Below, one piece after another: positions 4,980 through 28,628 of a stretch of DNA of 28,628 nt. A program made the translations under genes and the position numbers. Location of the stretch: the IMG/VR virus record IMGVR_UViG_3300013102_000060, positions 1 through 28,628 of that record; one strand, 5' to 3'. The notes under the pieces were generated by a model. The model saw nothing but the letters and a program-made list of their open reading frames with translations, was not told where the DNA came from and made no database searches. This DNA is from a virus. Each line of letters starts with the position of its first letter. Position 1 is the first letter of the stretch.

Positions 4980-6287
4980 TTAGACAGGTCGGAAGTGTGG
5001 CTCGTCGAGGAACTCGATGGACCCGCCGGACTCCCGTCCGATAGTGGCCCGAATGGACAGTGTGGATAGATCGGCGGGCAAGGTTACGTGCATCCGACAA
5101 TCGACCGGGGACCCGTCCCCGGGAAGCGTGAACAGCCGTTCCTTCTTGAACCGCGTGTCATCTCCCGTGTCATGAACCTGCAAGCGAAGCGTTGCTTGGT
5201 CGCCGCCTGACGCCCTGGCTGGGACTGCCATCTCACAGACGCCCCCCATTGCCCATCCAAAGCGTGTGGCGAGGAAGATCCCTTGTGTCATGGGCCTCGC
5301 CATGTCAGATGCTGTCAGGAGGTGTTTCCCGTCCACCGTCCGCAGCGAGTATCCTGAACGTCCTCCCCAGCCCTCAAAGTCGTTGACGAATTGGGTGTTC
5401 GTCAGGAGGTCTTCACGTCTGGAGTGCGTTGCGTCAGCAACAGCCATGCCCGACACTGTCAGGACTTCGAGCCGGCCAGCCGACCGCTCCGCTGCCAGAT
5501 AGGCCAAGATCGTCTCGAAGTCTTCAAGCGCGATGCCTTTGGGGGAGTCGGCTTCCCCGGGGTGCATGTAGAGCGTTATTCCGCGGCCGTGCCGCTGCGT
5601 TTCCCGGATGATGTCTATCGTTCTCTCCACCGGCCGTCCCTCGACGGTCATGTGGGATGCGCCCAGTTTGATACGCCCGTCCAGCGGTTGCATGAATCCA
5701 GAGCTCTTGCCGTCACTGAAAGCATGACTGTTTTGGATGGCCGTGCCTGCCAGCGTGAAGAACGCACCAACGCCTCGGCCCAGATTGAATCCGTCGTAGT
5801 TTGAGGATCCATTGACCATGAACCCGTCAACGACAAGCTTGGGCCCGACGTATTCCTGCAGTCGTTGCTGACCGCCCACGATGGCGTCGATAATTCCTGC
5901 CTCGTCAGTATGAGGGCGGTGGTCGCCAGCGTGGTTCCAAACCTCAATGCCGTCATAAAGAGCCATGTCAGTGACTTCTTGCCACGTGACTTGGTTGTTT
6001 TGTTCGAAGGCCATGTTGTCCGCGTTCAAACAAATGCTGCCAGGCATCCTGTATTTCCGCATCAGCGGAAGCACTCTGTCACGCATAGCGTTCAGCCAGT
6101 GATCAAACCTCAGCGATACGACTGCTTTACCTTGGACGCCAAGAGCTCCCCGGCGCATATAAGCCTGCTGCTGAAGTATTGCGTGCCGGGCCCCGGCGTA
6201 CGGCAATAGAGCGGCTGGCGGCAAAGGACTCTCGCGCCCACTATTTTCTGCAGCTGAGGTGACCAGCTGTGTAATTTCCCCATTCAC
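4980..6287 (-). CDS. Polysaccharide deacetylase-like protein with C-terminal beta domain
   Basis: Predicted metal-dependent carbohydrate deacetylase of about 435 aa. The NodB-like core keeps the metal-binding elements: RFDH (60-63, Asp62) and NHAGDH (118-123, His119 and His123, compare the family HSxxH). It also shares a later YMHPGEAD segment with the fibre-fused deacetylase of this phage. From about residue 300 on, after SRREDLLTN, a strand-rich region beginning FVNDFEGWGG resembles carbohydrate-binding beta-sandwiches. The frame runs up to a GTG at 6341, but that codon lies inside the upstream terminator, so I prefer the GTG at 6287, six bases after a TACATT box (leaderless). It lacks a tail-attachment domain. 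It converges on the epimerase gene. Substrate unknown: N- or O-acetylated surface glycan is likely. Confidence 0.77.
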   Translation of the reverse strand: MNGEITQLVTSAAENSGRESPLPPAALLPYAGARHAILQQQAYMRRGALGVQGKAVVSLRFDHWLNAMRDRVLPLMRKYRMPGSICLNADNMAFEQNNQVTWQEVTDMALYDGIEVWNHAGDHRPHTDEAGIIDAIVGGQQRLQEYVGPKLVVDGFMVNGSSNYDGFNLGRGVGAFFTLAGTAIQNSHAFSDGKSSGFMQPLDGRIKLGASHMTVEGRPVERTIDIIRETQRHGRGITLYMHPGEADSPKGIALEDFETILAYLAAERSAGRLEVLTVSGMAVADATHSRREDLLTNTQFVNDFEGWGGRSGYSLRTVDGKHLLTASDMARPMTQGIFLATRFGWAMGGVCEMAVPARASGGDQATLRLQVHDTGDDTRFKKERLFTLPGDGSPVDCRMHVTLPADLSTLSIRATIGRESGGSIEFLDEPHFRPV

Positions 6288-6293
6288 TGCACC

Positions 6294-6320
6294 AATGTAC
6301 CGCCCGACTTGACTTGACAA
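6294..6320 (-). promoter_or_regulatory. Candidate leaderless promoter for the deacetylase gene
   Basis: Minus-strand TTGTCA (6315-6320) and TACATT (6294-6299) are 15 bases apart, and the GTG start follows six bases after the -10. It lies immediately downstream of the late-operon terminator. No ribosome site precedes the GTG, consistent with a leaderless mRNA, which actinobacteria translate well. Confidence 0.45.
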
Positions 6321-6330
6321 TAAACGACGA

Positions 6331-6362
6331 AAGACCCCCACCCGGCGAGGGGTGGGGGTCTT
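6331..6362 (-). terminator. Strong terminator ending the late/lysis operon
   Basis: AAGACCCCCACCC at 6331-6343 pairs perfectly with 6350-6362 (13 bp, six-base loop), four bases after the holin-like gene's stop. On the minus strand TCTTTCGTCGTTTATT follows. Confidence 0.88.
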
Positions 6363-8640: not shown

Positions 8641-10446
8641 CTAGAGGACATCGCAGAGAAGCTGCTCGTAGGGGCCGACGATCTTCAGCCGGCCAGCGGT
8701 TTCTTCTGCCTTGACGTAGTCCAAGATCGTGATGAACGTTGCCGTCGTGATGTATCCCTCGGTGTCCAAGCGGGACGGGTGCAGCATGAACTGCAGTGCC
8801 CGCTTTCCCGTCTCCGCTGCCTGAATGACGGTCTGCGCCTGGGCGAGCGTGTACGCGTCAATAGTGAGGTGGCCGAGGCCTTGACGGACCATTCCGTCCT
8901 GCCAGCGGGTAGTAGCGCCGATGTAGCCGGCAGCCACAGGGTGGTGGGTCAGGATGAAGCGGCCGCCGTCCGTGGCGTAGAACTGTTCCAACGTCTGCCC
9001 GTCGACGAACCCGCCGAAGTCAGTGCCCGTGGACCCGGGAGGGGCAAATCCGTCGATCTGGGCTGCTGGGATCTGCGCCCGAAGTTCCGTGAGCCCGTCA
9101 AGGATCGCGGCTTTCCATGACGCTTCGGAGTTGTCCCCGGATCCGTGGTCCTTGGAGTGGTTCCAAATCTCGGCCAACCCAGCGGTAACCCAGTCGTTCA
9201 CCATGGAGGCGGTCACTCCCACGTTTTCAGTGCGATCCCACTGTCCGGAGCAAAGCGCCAGAGAGTACTTGAAGTTGCGGGACTCCATCTGCGCACGAAC
9301 CAGAGCGTTGAAGTTCGCAAGCCCATGATCGAACCGGAACGCCAAGGTGGCGGTGGTGACCTTCTTTCGGCCGCCGCGGCGGCGACTGAAGTCCTGAATC
9401 AGGACTGCATTACTCAGGCCGGCGTCACTGACAACAGTTACCGGAGTTGTGCCTCCACCCGTCCCAAGCTGCTTCCAAGCAATCCCAGCCCAACCAGCCA
9501 ACACTGTGGAGGTTCGGATGAACACGCGTCCGTCAGCCGTTGTGAGTCGCTGCAGCGCAACGCCCGACTTGGACGTGACGAAGTTTTCTACGGTGATCGC
9601 TCCCGAACTCACTCCGGCTGGCACGCCAACGAGTGCGCTGGGGTTGGTGCTGGTCCACACACCTGTTTCACGGAATGTGTCCAGGTTTGTGCCGTCCAGC
9701 AAGGGCCCACGCAACCACGCGCCGTAGCCCCATGCCGTCCACGACGTGTTGGTGCTGGCTCGCGTCGTCCGGAAGTATCGATCCGGCGGCGCCGTCGTGG
9801 AGACGAGCGCGAGCACTTCCTGGCTCGTGAAGTTCCCGGCTTTCGCCTTGCCAACAAACAGCGAGCCCGTGAAGCTTCCTGCCGGCCAGTTCAGCAGCGT
9901 CGCAGCGACTGTCGTGGACGGGCACGTGTACAAGCCAGGGTCGCGGATGTTGTTGATGTCCTCGCCGGTAACCAATTCGCGCTGCGGCAGGCCGCGGTAT
10001 TCGATGGCTGCGCTCGGAGCGGAGGGGTTCCAGTTGGTGGCACTGTACGTGCCAGCGGATGTGAAGGCTACCTTGGCGGTTACCACGTCACCGTCCGGGG
10101 CAACGACCTGCTGCCCAGCGGAGTAGGGCGTGTTCGCTTTCCACCGCGGGAGTGCCTGGACAGCCAAAGCCGTGGCCTGGGACGCTACGCCTTCGACCGT
10201 TCCAAGGCGGGTGTCCTGCGTGGACGGGTTCCAGTTCGCCGCGTTATACGTAGCACCAGACGTGAAAGCCACCTTCGCCCGGACAGGATCACCGTTCGGG
10301 GCGATGGCGTACTTGTTGGCCGCGTAGAAGGTGTTTGGCTGCCAAGCGTCCAGTCCTCCCGGACTGCCGGCGGCACCCGTGTCGCCTTTGTCGCCCTTAG
10401 AACCGCGGAGGTTGGCGACGTAGACCCATGCCCAGTTTGCGACCAT
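8641..10446 (-). CDS. Tail fibre/spike with pyocin-knob repeats and polysaccharide deacetylase domain
   Basis: 601-aa modular receptor-binding protein. Residues 1-14 are hydrophobic and aromatic, and 15-31 are a collagen-like Gly-x-x run (GSKGDKGDTGAAGSPGG). Two copies of a chitin-binding-like unit follow at about 34-75 and 101-142, each with A-P-(N/D)-G-D, AKVAFTS and NWNPS. Residues about 155-330 hold two knob-like modules of the pyocin-fibre type (GLYTCPS, then GVWTSTNPS). From 365 on comes a NodB-like deacetylase with RFDHG (371-375, Asp373) and NHSKDH (429-434, His430/His434), and a distal FMLHPSRLD. It probably binds and de-acetylates the host surface polymer during adsorption. The ATG overlaps the upstream stop by one base and has AGGAGT upstream. 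Confidence 0.87.
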   Translation of the reverse strand: MVANWAWVYVANLRGSKGDKGDTGAAGSPGGLDAWQPNTFYAANKYAIAPNGDPVRAKVAFTSGATYNAANWNPSTQDTRLGTVEGVASQATALAVQALPRWKANTPYSAGQQVVAPDGDVVTAKVAFTSAGTYSATNWNPSAPSAAIEYRGLPQRELVTGEDINNIRDPGLYTCPSTTVAATLLNWPAGSFTGSLFVGKAKAGNFTSQEVLALVSTTAPPDRYFRTTRASTNTSWTAWGYGAWLRGPLLDGTNLDTFRETGVWTSTNPSALVGVPAGVSSGAITVENFVTSKSGVALQRLTTADGRVFIRTSTVLAGWAGIAWKQLGTGGGTTPVTVVSDAGLSNAVLIQDFSRRRGGRKKVTTATLAFRFDHGLANFNALVRAQMESRNFKYSLALCSGQWDRTENVGVTASMVNDWVTAGLAEIWNHSKDHGSGDNSEASWKAAILDGLTELRAQIPAAQIDGFAPPGSTGTDFGGFVDGQTLEQFYATDGGRFILTHHPVAAGYIGATTRWQDGMVRQGLGHLTIDAYTLAQAQTVIQAAETGKRALQFMLHPSRLDTEGYITTATFITILDYVKAEETAGRLKIVGPYEQLLCDVL

Positions 10447-25051: not shown

Positions 25052-26386
25052 TTACTCCCCGTTTACAGCCCTTGTCAGGTTCTCGATGTCAGGGTTCGAC
25101 TTGGCGCGGAGGTCCATTTCCAACATGCGTGCGCGCTGCTCAGGCGTGTACCCGAGGTCCTCGCGAGCCTGCTCAACAGGGATGATGCCCGCCTGGACCT
25201 TCTTCACGACGGCGTCAGCCGTCTGAGCGATCGTCGGAGTGGACGGATCGCGCCAGACAGTCTCCAAGCTGAGTGCTTTCGGGTCCCATTGGCCGGTCTT
25301 GAAGCGAAGGATGAGGCGCTGCACGTCCTCCCACGCCCCTCCGAGGTACGTGTGCTTGCGCTCCACGCGTTTGACCAGCTGCGTCTCCGAAGAACGGATG
25401 GCAGCGTCCGACGTCGGGTTGCCGCCAACGAAGCTTGCGTAGTGCGGTGGGAGCGCCAGCAGTTGGGCGCCAATCTGGATCAGCAACTGCATCGACTTAT
25501 GGAAAACAGCGAGGTCAGTCTCGTCGAACTGGCCGAACTTGGTGTCCTTCGACTCCGTCGCCCACAACCGGCCGGCGTCACGGGACCACACCCCGATCGG
25601 GTTTCCGTCAGCGTCCACGAAATCTTCAGCAGACAGCGCAGTGGCCCATCGGCGCGGCATCGCGTGGTACTCGCCGCTGATCATCATGTCCGTGGCCATC
25701 TTGTTCAGCGCGTCAGCGATGCCAACGACATCATGGAACTCAGAACGGCCGTCCGGACGCAGGATCCGCGGGTTGTTGACCAGAGGCACAACAGGGCAGG
25801 CGCCCAGCTCGTGCACATCAGCCGGGCCCGTAGACCACCATTCCTTGCGGAAGAACGCGAACGACTCAGTCGAGTTCGGCAGGTACAGCGTGGCCCGCTG
25901 GACCTGGTCGTTGCCTTCGCCCTCAGCCCACCGCTTGATCGCGGACGAAACCTTGCGCGTGCGAGGGTCACGCTCTGCAAAGACCTGGAAGGGGCTCTCA
26001 ACAGTGACAATCGGGTCAGCATCGTCGTCGTCGCCGGAGCCGACGATAGCGTAGGAGCGTTTCAGTGCCAGCGAGTCGAGGTGGCCCTGCTGCGACTGCT
26101 CATCCAAGCCGTTCGCCTGCCAGATACGCCACAGTTCCTCGTCGCTGGAGGATGAGCCGCGGTAACGGAATCCCTCGATGTCGAGGCGGTTCTCGTAGGC
26201 TTCGGTGCCGATGCGGAGGATGTTGATGATCAGCTGATGGACTCGGTCGCCGATCTCGTCCTGCATTGCCGCGGCCATGTACTTGAGCGGCTGTTCACCC
26301 TCGAAGTACCTGTCCAAGCGGTCAAGCTCCGGGATTTCGGCAGCCAGCTTCTTGTCCAGGCGTACAAGGGCATCAGAAACAGCCAT
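25052..26386 (-). CDS. Portal protein (SPP1 gp6-like)
   Basis: 444-aa portal subunit of the SPP1 gp6-like family, forming the DNA entry/exit ring. Visible features include KLAAEIPELDRLDRYFEGEQ and a core with LYLPNSTESFAFFRKEWWST. The C-terminal half has SKDTKFGQFDETDLAVFHKS, then QIGAQLLALPPHYASFVGGN and SETQLVKRVERKHTYLGGAW, which are typical portal helices. I chose the ATG at 26386, which has GGAGGG upstream, instead of the ATG at 26398, which has none. It follows the terminase genes directly, as expected. Confidence 0.9.
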   Translation of the reverse strand: MAVSDALVRLDKKLAAEIPELDRLDRYFEGEQPLKYMAAAMQDEIGDRVHQLIINILRIGTEAYENRLDIEGFRYRGSSSSDEELWRIWQANGLDEQSQQGHLDSLALKRSYAIVGSGDDDDADPIVTVESPFQVFAERDPRTRKVSSAIKRWAEGEGNDQVQRATLYLPNSTESFAFFRKEWWSTGPADVHELGACPVVPLVNNPRILRPDGRSEFHDVVGIADALNKMATDMMISGEYHAMPRRWATALSAEDFVDADGNPIGVWSRDAGRLWATESKDTKFGQFDETDLAVFHKSMQLLIQIGAQLLALPPHYASFVGGNPTSDAAIRSSETQLVKRVERKHTYLGGAWEDVQRLILRFKTGQWDPKALSLETVWRDPSTPTIAQTADAVVKKVQAGIIPVEQAREDLGYTPEQRARMLEMDLRAKSNPDIENLTRAVNGE

Positions 26387-26401
26387 CAGGCCCTCCATCG
26401 G

Positions 26402-27013
26402 TTAGGAAACGATGACCCGCCGGCGCTTTGGCGTGGGGTCCCAGCCGCCCTCGCGAGCATCACTGGCAGCCGTGTGGGCCAAAATTCGGGCCATGGCAGC
26501 ATCAATCTTTTGGTGGTCAGCAGGCTTGATCAGCACATACTGTTGGCCAGGCTTGGAAGCCTTGCGGGCATTGCCCATGTGGATCGTGGCGATGGGGCAG
26601 CCGTCATGCTTGATCCGTTTCTGAGCGAGGTCGATTTCGAAGCGCTTGATTTCCGCGTACATCGGCTTGATGCGGTTCGTTGGCCACTCGAAGACGTGCT
26701 CATCTCCATGGGCCAACGACCATTCACCGATCTCCGTGTACCAGTCCTGCGGGTCGCAATACATCCGCTCCACCCGGTACCGCGTGAAGATCTCATCAAC
26801 GGCCGCATGGACCTCACCACGGGGAATCTGGCCATTCCACTTCGCCGGGTTCCAGATCGTTGGCTCCTTATCGGAACCGTATCTGGGAGTGAAGGAGAAT
26901 CCGTCGAAGGTTTCCGCCTGAATGGCCGTCCAGTCGTTGTTCTCCGAGCCGTCAAAGCCCACACAAATCGACGTGCCATCAGGCGGATTGGGCAACCACA
27001 GCTGCTTCTGCAT
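26402..27013 (-). CDS. terL: Large terminase, nuclease part (frame-separated from the ATPase)
   Basis: 203-aa RNase H-like nuclease domain that cuts concatemeric DNA during packaging. Metal-binding acids appear at ICVGFDGSENND (Asp21), MYCDPQDW (Asp87) and KIDAAMA (Asp171). It is in a different frame from the ATPase part (26979-28061), which it overlaps by 35 bases. An ATG at 27011-27013 has a GGGAGG site six bases upstream, so it could be translated as a separate protein. Alternatively a +1 frameshift, or a sequence error, joins both. In related phages these are one polypeptide. A longer frame to 27322 is Arg/Ser-rich and is a shadow of the ATPase gene. Confidence 0.85.
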   Translation of the reverse strand: MQKQLWLPNPPDGTSICVGFDGSENNDWTAIQAETFDGFSFTPRYGSDKEPTIWNPAKWNGQIPRGEVHAAVDEIFTRYRVERMYCDPQDWYTEIGEWSLAHGDEHVFEWPTNRIKPMYAEIKRFEIDLAQKRIKHDGCPIATIHMGNARKASKPGQQYVLIKPADHQKIDAAMARILAHTAASDAREGGWDPTPKRRRVIVS

Positions 27014-28061
27014 ATGCGGCCTCCCACAAACCGTCGCGCAACCATGTACCCGCGCCCGAGACGAGACGGTTTCCGAAGAACCGTTCCGCCTGGGCAGGAT
27101 CCGTGGCCATGAGCTCGGCAGCCTCAGCCTCGATGTTGTCCAAGTCGACCCACGGCGAACCAGAGTAGACGTAGGCATGGATCTTCCGGCGGCCAGCCTT
27201 GGAACGGTATGACCAGTCCTTGGGCGGTTCCCGGAAGAACTTGAAGATGTCTTTGGCCTGAGACTCGTACGACTGCTGCGCATAGGAGTTCTCGGCAGGA
27301 TCCCAAGCGTTCGTTGTCGCAACAGATCGGCCGTTCATACCAGCCAAACCACGACGTTGAGTCGTAGCGACCTCGATCAGCTTGTTTTCCTTCGTGTACA
27401 AGCCAACTTCGTCTTGAATGGCAAAAGTGATCGGCTGGCCAAGTCGAGACTTAGCAGAGGACGACACCACGTCGATACGGTTGGACTTCGGACCACCATC
27501 GCCGTCGAGGATACGGATGAACCCTTCACGGATGGCCATGAGCTCAGTGAGCGGGCCTTCCATGACGATCGTGGACAGCGGGCCGTACACGTTGCCGGCC
27601 TGCTCTTCCGAAGACGCAAGCAACTGGATCAACGGTCCGGGACGACGTCGCCCCATAGGCTCGCCCGGCTCGTACTCGAACTCCCAGCCACAAGAGCAGC
27701 CGTTATCCTCACACAGGTACTTGTCACCGGCCTGAGCCCAGCCACAAAACATCGACGGGCCAACGGCCTCGCCGGCGGTGATGGCCGCGGTCCACGGACC
27801 CTTGCCAGTCTTCTGCGGCGCAACAACGAGCGAACGGCGATAAACGAACGCCTGAGCGAGCGGAGGATTATCCTCATCCCACTTGGCAGTTTCACGGATC
27901 CGGTAATGGTTCGCCGTGCACCAAAACTGCCAGTCAGACTGACGGAAAGGGATGCGAAGACCCAAAGAGTTCGGAATCGTGCAGTGCTGCTCATACCAAG
28001 CGTCTAGAAGGTCCCCAAGAGTCGGGAAGTCAACAACGCCCAGACCATCATCCGCTGCCAT
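26979..28061 (-). CDS. terL: Large terminase, ATPase part
   Basis: 360-aa N-terminal motor of DNA packaging. A Walker A-like loop APQKTGKGPW lies at 81-90, and the Walker B TFAIQDE with catalytic Glu218 at 212-218. A coupling motif follows (SVATTNAWDP). A Cys-rich insertion MFCGW...CEDNGCSCGW (104-126) looks like a zinc knuckle. The frame stops at TGA after VVAQSA, short of the nuclease domain, which continues in the +1 frame. The ATG at 28061 overlaps the upstream gene by 14 bases. Family is secure; the break is either real or an error. Confidence 0.92.
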   Translation of the reverse strand: MAADDGLGVVDFPTLGDLLDAWYEQHCTIPNSLGLRIPFRQSDWQFWCTANHYRIRETAKWDEDNPPLAQAFVYRRSLVVAPQKTGKGPWTAAITAGEAVGPSMFCGWAQAGDKYLCEDNGCSCGWEFEYEPGEPMGRRRPGPLIQLLASSEEQAGNVYGPLSTIVMEGPLTELMAIREGFIRILDGDGGPKSNRIDVVSSSAKSRLGQPITFAIQDEVGLYTKENKLIEVATTQRRGLAGMNGRSVATTNAWDPAENSYAQQSYESQAKDIFKFFREPPKDWSYRSKAGRRKIHAYVYSGSPWVDLDNIEAEAAELMATDPAQAERFFGNRLVSGAGTWLRDGLWEAAYAEAAVVAQSA

Positions 28062-28596
28062 CCTTCACCGCCCTCAACCGGCGCTCACGCTTGCCAGTCG
28101 AAGACGAATCGGGCTCTGACTCCTTCTCGGCACGCCGCGGCGCGACCTCATCACGGGCAATCGCCCAGCCGTTCAGCTTCAATCCCGAGGGAGTGAGGCC
28201 AATCTGCTCTTGCAGCCTCAGCAGGCCAGTGCGATCGGCGGCCGAAGCGTCGCTCGTCTCGCAATGGGCTTTCATGCGGACCCAGTCAGCAACGGACTGC
28301 CAGCGCCAGGACTCCAACGCCCACGCAGCAGCCTGCGGAGTACGCCACGCCCAGCACCACAACTCGTTCTCACGAGAGAACCGCTCAGCGCTCGCCCCCT
28401 CGTCCACTTCCGTGAGCTTCTGCCCATCGTCAAAGTAGGTCGAAGTCACTTCCAACCGAGGCAAAGGGAACTCCGGAACATCGCCGTCATAGCCGGAAGC
28501 GGGGAGCTTCTCATAGCTCAAACCGCGAGATTCAGATCGAGCCGAATTGATATCGGCGTTGGGGCCAGAACGGGCCCGAGCTCCACCGGACGTCAC
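28048..28596 (-). CDS. Probable small terminase subunit
   Basis: 182-aa protein directly upstream of the large terminase and overlapping it by 14 bases. The central part (RENELWCWAWRTPQAAAW, then SWRWQSVADWVRMKAHCE) and the later LLRLQEQIGLTPSGLKLNGW match the small terminase-like proteins of actinophages: helical, Trp-rich, with an LTPxGL motif. The N-terminus (about 1-40) is Ser/Arg/Gly-rich and disordered. The C-terminus is charged (RRAEKESEPDSSSTGKRERR). GTG start at 28596 with GGAGGAGG upstream. It would recognise the pac or cos site. Alternative: a terminase-linked DNA-binding protein of unknown type. Confidence 0.65.
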   Translation of the reverse strand: MTSGGARARSGPNADINSARSESRGLSYEKLPASGYDGDVPEFPLPRLEVTSTYFDDGQKLTEVDEGASAERFSRENELWCWAWRTPQAAAWALESWRWQSVADWVRMKAHCETSDASAADRTGLLRLQEQIGLTPSGLKLNGWAIARDEVAPRRAEKESEPDSSSTGKRERRLRAVKDGSG

Positions 28597-28628
28597 GCCG
28601 ACCTCCTCCGAAAGCAGGGACCTTGAAA

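Follow-up and report, generated by a model that had tools for sequence, protein, structure and literature searches.

The DNA-packaging enzyme of phages, the large terminase (TerL), is normally a single protein. In packaging models, a hinge joining its ATPase and nuclease domains couples ATP hydrolysis to DNA movement, and gp17 of phage T4, when cut at the interdomain linker, kept its ATPase and nuclease activities and lost DNA translocation (PMC3012670). A naturally split terL is described as characteristic of most cluster AY phages of Arthrobacter, with BlueShadow placed in that cluster (PMC12820723). The phage records nearest to the locus described here are likewise those of Arthrobacter phages, in which one ORF is labelled “terminase large subunit, ATPase domain” and another “nuclease domain”; the Gordonia Nyceiraevirus phages are annotated in the same way. 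The split terL is, as such, already present in annotations that precede this analysis. Full-text searches, whose coverage leaves out most subscription journals, returned no paper testing whether these ORFs yield two proteins or one. In the respective reports, 9-base 3′ extensions are given for both BlueShadow (PMC12820723) and Nyceirae (PMC5559632), making cos packaging likely for this group.

Here, a split terL is described from a stretch of viral DNA of 28,628 nucleotides (IMG/VR record IMGVR_UViG_3300013102_000060; hereafter, “the window”). Judged from sequence comparisons, its large terminase is most probably made as an ATPase motor and an RNase H-like nuclease that are translated separately, with the two chains presumably reassembling (rough probability, 0.88).

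The terminase locus of the window

The features of the locus, all on the minus strand, are as follows.

28048–28626, minus strand: ORF of the likely small terminase subunit, running off the window (possible GTG start at 28596)
26979–28061, minus strand: terL ATPase gene (phrog_19179, E 1.3e-171, “terminase large subunit”)
27798–27818, minus strand: Walker A-like PQKTGKG of the ATPase (Q83, K84, G86, K87 and P89 invariant in 42 sequences)
27408–27413, minus strand: Walker B acids D217-E218 of the ATPase (invariant in 42 sequences)
27020–27025, minus strand: Shine-Dalgarno sequence GGGAGG of the nuclease gene, overlying conserved Trp-Glu codons of the ATPase
26979–27013, minus strand: 35-nt overlap read in both frames, its end being the ATPase stop TGA (26979–26981)
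26402–27013, minus strand: terL nuclease gene, RNase H-like (phrog_21277, E 3.2e-103, “terminase large subunit”; Pfam PF20441)
26951–26953, minus strand: candidate catalytic acid D21 (GFDGS) of the nuclease (invariant in 44 sequences)
26753–26755, minus strand: candidate catalytic acid D87 (YCDP) of the nuclease (invariant in 44 sequences)
26501–26503, minus strand: candidate catalytic acid D171 (QKID) of the nuclease (invariant in 44 sequences)
25052–26398, minus strand: portal protein gene, directly downstream of the nuclease (phrog_104, E 3.3e-126; Pfam SPP1_portal)

The ATPase ORF encodes 360 amino acids and ends in VVAQSA followed by the TGA, in the context GCC TGA T. The nuclease ORF, of 203 amino acids, lies in the +1 frame relative to the ATPase and runs from the ATG at 27013 to a stop at 26402, although its frame is already open from a TTG at 27322. 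The GGGAGG stands six bases before the ATG. A first-pass annotation made from the sequence alone had described precisely this arrangement, namely an ATPase frame closed by TGA after VVAQSA, an overlapping +1 nuclease frame and a well-spaced ribosome-binding site, and the ORFs and coordinates bear it out.

Both halves are predicted to fold as complete domains. AlphaFold models built as single chains, from alignments of 42 (ATPase) and 44 (nuclease) sequences, reached mean pLDDT values of 90.0 and 90.6, respectively, with lower certainty at the ends facing the junction (55 in the last block of the ATPase and 73 in the first block of the nuclease). The best fold match of the ATPase model in the PDB was the large terminase of HK97 (6z6d; E 7.3e-12), while the nuclease model best matched the G20c terminase nuclease, followed by HK97; these matches place the cut at the interdomain linker, each half being one full domain. 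Sequence searches of the PDB with either half gave no relevant match, such that fold comparison alone provided one. Pfam TerL_nuclease scored 29.5 bits on the window nuclease, against a cut-off of 24, and phrog_19179 (347 positions) and phrog_21277 (208 positions) each span only one TerL half. Two hallmarks of an HK97-type TerL are therefore found here, Walker A and B motifs in an ATPase domain and conserved acids in an RNase H-like nuclease; the third, both domains in one polypeptide, is replaced by separate frames divided by a stop, and apparently by separate translation.

The surroundings of the locus are those of a temperate siphophage module, as marked by gene order and by an integrase gene at the left end (2–790; phrog_1), and the presence of this integrase makes it probable that the phage is temperate. 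Portal and then protease genes follow the split terL, and the wider order is portal, head decoration, major head, major tail and tape measure. The likely small terminase ORF overlaps the ATPase gene by 14 nt and matches phrog_226 (E 1.8e-12), a family labelled “minor tail protein”; the syntenic gene in Seahorse and its relatives carries a “terminase small subunit” annotation. RefSeq agrees with the phrog_226 label, the original submissions of the same phages say terminase small subunit, and phrog_226 is probably a mislabelled family. Elsewhere in the window, two tail ORFs (4980–6341 and 8641–10446) match overlapping parts of one family, phrog_11373, which suggests duplicated tail domains. Finally, a close relative of the window resides in the genome of Arthrobacter sp. 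cf158 (96% DNA identity over 3.6 kb).

Occurrence of split and fused terL genes

A survey of viral contig scans, genome contig scans, phage records and the window gave 294 terL loci, redundant between scans, comprising 230 split, 57 fused and 7 incomplete loci; a locus with a nuclease only, for which the ATPase was not found (L214), was left out as incomplete. Among the split loci, 227 have the nuclease in the +1 frame, two have an offset of 0 (one contig fetched twice, L138/L261) and one has an offset of 2 (L195). Once redundancy was removed on the basis of the junction-flanking DNA, 123 distinct split junctions remained, alongside 50 distinct fused loci. The +1 phase was scored in 121 of these 123 junctions; for L200 and L212, whose nuclease is broken, the score refers to the fragment lying downstream. 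Named genomes with such loci include Nocardia, Rhodococcus, Corynebacterium, Brachybacterium, Microbacterium, Bifidobacterium and Nocardioides, among others, and ten further contigs retrieved with a Bifidobacterium-type nuclease were all split in +1 (10/10). The split is the usual state of terL in this actinophage clade. The first-pass annotation had called a split motor unusual for tailed phages, a reasonable view of tailed phages in general that does not hold within the clade, where it is both common and already annotated.

Two irregularities were seen among the loci. In L148 and L206, the open ATPase frame extends to approximately 2 kb, roughly double the usual length. In L200, L212 and L195, the nuclease frame is broken at the same GFDGS catalytic motif, with intact copies elsewhere; this shared break could reflect decay or a preferred insertion site.

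Start of the nuclease gene and coding in the overlap

A start codon for the nuclease is retained across the split loci. Within 18 codons upstream of a conserved Trp, a nuclease-frame ATG was present in 105 of 112 scored distinct junctions, related sequences among them meaning that these are not independent counts; the best candidate in the other seven was TTG (four) or GTG (three). By comparison, 20/112 of these junctions have an ATG in their third frame, and 11/46 fused relatives have one in the +1 frame. If GTG and TTG are counted along with ATG, the discrimination is lost, with figures of 112/112 (nuclease frame), 98/112 (third frame) and 31/46 (fused +1 frame). The count omits L200 and L212, owing to their broken nuclease, as well as L195 and L138/L261, which are not in +1. 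The motif pattern also missed nine loci, of which L269, L270, L282 and L290 are contigs already fetched as L145, L146, L155 and L162; these last four and L206, viewed in the junction tables, each have an ATG. In the fused control, the pattern missed L095.

The ATG shifts its place instead of disappearing. It is mostly formed by TAT-GC, lies further upstream at GAT-GC in a group that encodes the Tyr by TAC, and elsewhere directly precedes the Trp. A Shine-Dalgarno sequence appears to move with it: an AAG four codons earlier, making AAGGA, is found in 22/40 junctions whose ATG lies in the Trp-Asp codons versus 6/72 of the rest. The best duplex energy was −6 or lower in 88% of the 112 junctions, compared with 10.6% of 1670 background positions, a figure based on the most favourable among several candidate starts and uncorrected for relatedness.

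It is the nuclease frame that is conserved in the overlap. From the Trp onward, its residues read W in 111/111, L in 102/111, P in 100/111, N in 96/111 and P in 111/111 sequences, and the ATPase frame varies, a single position showing E, Q, K, S, T or a stop. Codon differences of one base, counted over sequence pairs that are not independent, were 8140 synonymous versus 638 nonsynonymous in the nuclease frame and 425 versus 8465 in the ATPase frame; restricting the count to 49 tree representatives gave 1614 to 100 and 96 to 1405, respectively. A ribosomal shift at the ATPase stop would leave the nuclease codons upstream of it untranslated, and their conservation argues against frameshifting at that site.

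Alternative explanations

Separate subunits, +1 frameshifting near the UGA and a one-base error had been left unranked in the first-pass annotation; of these, the first is well supported, the second disfavoured and the third refuted. The strongest competitor is programmed +1 ribosomal frameshifting near the ATPase stop (GCC UGA U), producing a fused TerL either alone or alongside the separate halves. It would account for the +1 phase of 121/123 distinct junctions (L200 and L212, with their broken nuclease, included) and for the two frames being nearly always open around the junction. An NCC-stop is present in 102 of the 123; +1 shifting is known from UCC_UGA and CCC_UGA in other systems, GCG_UGA_C serves in yeast antizyme, and recoding of a terminase has a precedent in bypassing in phage Hau3 (all from PMC5009743). 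By eye, phiHau3 proved to be a different case, its terminase being interrupted within the ATPase part.

Several observations speak against such a mechanism. The shift-prone site is not common to all members, with the NCC-stop missing in 21/123 junctions, including those of Nyceiraevirus and of the Bifidobacterium/Luteimicrobium groups, and no other shared slip site was seen by eye in the junction tables. The ATPase stop falls in the Pro-Asn or Pro-Asp/Glu codons at three places, 8, 14 and 17 bases after the Trp; given these three positions and the 21 junctions without NCC, the NCC-stop is best read as a by-product of the nuclease Pro codons. Frameshifting would likewise not call for a nuclease frame conserved upstream of the ATPase stop, or for an ATG and Shine-Dalgarno sequence that are conserved and relocated. 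RNA structure at the junction, assessed in the window, was not notable (z −0.67).

In L138 and L212, frameshifting cannot join the halves at all. In L138, an HNH endonuclease ORF (1658–2359; phrog_1271, Pfam HNH) separates an intact ATPase from an intact nuclease, which has its own start. An intron was considered for this contig and rejected: Rfam gave no match up to E 1, and the non-coding stretch before the HNH ORF is shorter than 80 nt, a length we judge insufficient for a group I intron. When the insertion was searched for elsewhere, the same contig alone came up. In L212, the nuclease start lies beyond the ATPase stop, and all frames of the intervening stretch are closed by stops, although its nuclease is broken and it may be a decayed prophage. 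Finally, in L200, an AGGAGG precedes an intergenic ATG. Taken as a whole, programmed frameshifting is thus quite unlikely as the explanation, although some low-level shifting may accompany separate translation.

Decay of a prophage with a broken terminase is more improbable still. The window does carry an integrase and is a fragment, and the nuclease is really broken in some split loci (L195, L200 and L212). However, plaque-forming phages carry the same split, both halves in the window are intact with their candidate catalytic residues invariant, and the genes running from terminase to tape measure form a complete, correctly ordered module.

Least credible of all is a one-base sequencing or assembly error splitting one normal gene, for even though fused relatives exist (57/294 loci) and one-base mistakes are common in raw assemblies, it is refuted by the recurrence of the identical split in independently sequenced Arthrobacter and Gordonia phages and named actinobacterial genomes, at junctions with diverged sequence, differing stop codons and a retained start codon.

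Evolutionary history of the split

All trees were quick searches and excluded L195. With both domains concatenated, the tree of 59 split and 21 fused representatives (80 in all) required at least five changes between the two states. The ATPase alone required six changes, four of them forced by starred branches, and the nuclease alone required three, one of them forced. Holding all split rows together was rejected by the ATPase data (AU p = 1e-43) and not rejected by the nuclease data (AU p = 0.34); in AU tests of smaller groups, the groups were picked after identities had been seen. The disagreement between the two domains indicates that split-type nucleases have been joined to several ATPase lineages, and the split-type nuclease itself probably had a single origin.

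Individual loci illustrate how the halves of terL can be inherited separately. For example, the ATPase of L136 is 70% identical to that of the fused Streptomyces phage Kromp, and its split-type nuclease is 74% identical to that of L036. The window itself shares 79.9% (ATPase) and 60.2% (nuclease) identity with L022 and, conversely, 63.9% and 81.6% with L179. Five fused loci (L043, L046, L048, L049 and L051) have an ATPase near the split-type ATPases and a nuclease of another kind, the identities of L043 to the window being 62.5% for the ATPase against 43.3% for the nuclease. The data nonetheless give no support to the idea that only split loci shuffle their domains: the spread of ATPase-minus-nuclease identity is equal in split and fused pairs (SD 7.8 and 7.8), so that the split is no precondition for shuffling. 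Finally, the fused loci L175 and L215 are nested, in a weakly supported placement, among split nucleases and may be re-fusions.

Proposed model and its significance

Separate translation of the two halves is well supported by the sequence comparisons above; we further infer that their translation is coupled, that the chains associate, and that they jointly package DNA and cut it at cos. From a single mRNA, the ribosome would first make the ATPase. Translation of the nuclease would then begin at a dedicated ATG within the 3′-terminal part of the ATPase gene, where conserved ATPase codons also form the Shine-Dalgarno sequence; this placement makes coupled translation of the two chains probable, the second initiation likely being helped by ribosomes ending the ATPase approximately 35 nt further on. 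The chains presumably reassemble non-covalently on the portal as an ATPase ring with docked nucleases, which would package DNA and then cut it at cos.

A broader reading, to which we lean slightly, is that throughout a large actinophage clade, the motor ATPase and the nuclease are never covalently linked, such that the nuclease is exchangeable, separately dosed and passed between ATPase lineages, and a T4-type hinge is not generally required. If true, the covalent interdomain hinge held to be necessary from work on T4 would be no general requirement of viral packaging motors. With a natural split that is widespread and stable, plaque-forming phages also become available for testing if the nuclease domain has a role in translocation or in cutting only, and for determining the assembly ratio of the ATPase and nuclease chains. 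The novelty is limited by the fact that the split is already annotated.

Comparison with known systems

The closest systems are the Arthrobacter cluster AY phages, namely BlueShadow together with Seahorse, Isolde and Richie, which we take to be members, and these share the gene order, the +1 overlap and the layout of start and Shine-Dalgarno sequence seen in the window. Identity to them is 82–83% at the DNA level over 84–100% of a 2.6-kb query (19 nearest records). Like them, the window has two adjacent terL ORFs between terS and portal, with the nuclease start and its Shine-Dalgarno sequence inside the 3′ end of the ATPase gene; no difference in kind was found, and the window is a diverged member. 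The Gordonia Nyceiraevirus phages (Ewald, Nyceirae, Meyran, Phishy and Dogfish) also carry ATPase and nuclease in separate +1 ORFs, at 66–68% DNA identity, but their ATPase stop lies upstream of the nuclease WLPNP, and the annotated overlap is shorter or absent.

More distantly, the single-chain HK97-type TerL proteins (HK97; Streptomyces phages Dubu, phiSASD1 and Kromp; Arthrobacter phage Persistence) have the same domain folds in the same order, and the fused relatives align across both domains; they differ in having one continuous frame, in which the nuclease-frame start is not conserved. Parabacteroides phage PDS1 likewise has two “terminase large subunit” ORFs, which the original report tentatively put down to the codon table or the assembly (PMC10773633), but the phage is unrelated by host and genome, and a 92 nt gap lies between its ORFs. 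Finally, the artificially split gp17 of T4 was cut at the interdomain linker just as the terminase of the window is, with the difference that here the cut is natural and is found in plaque-forming phages.
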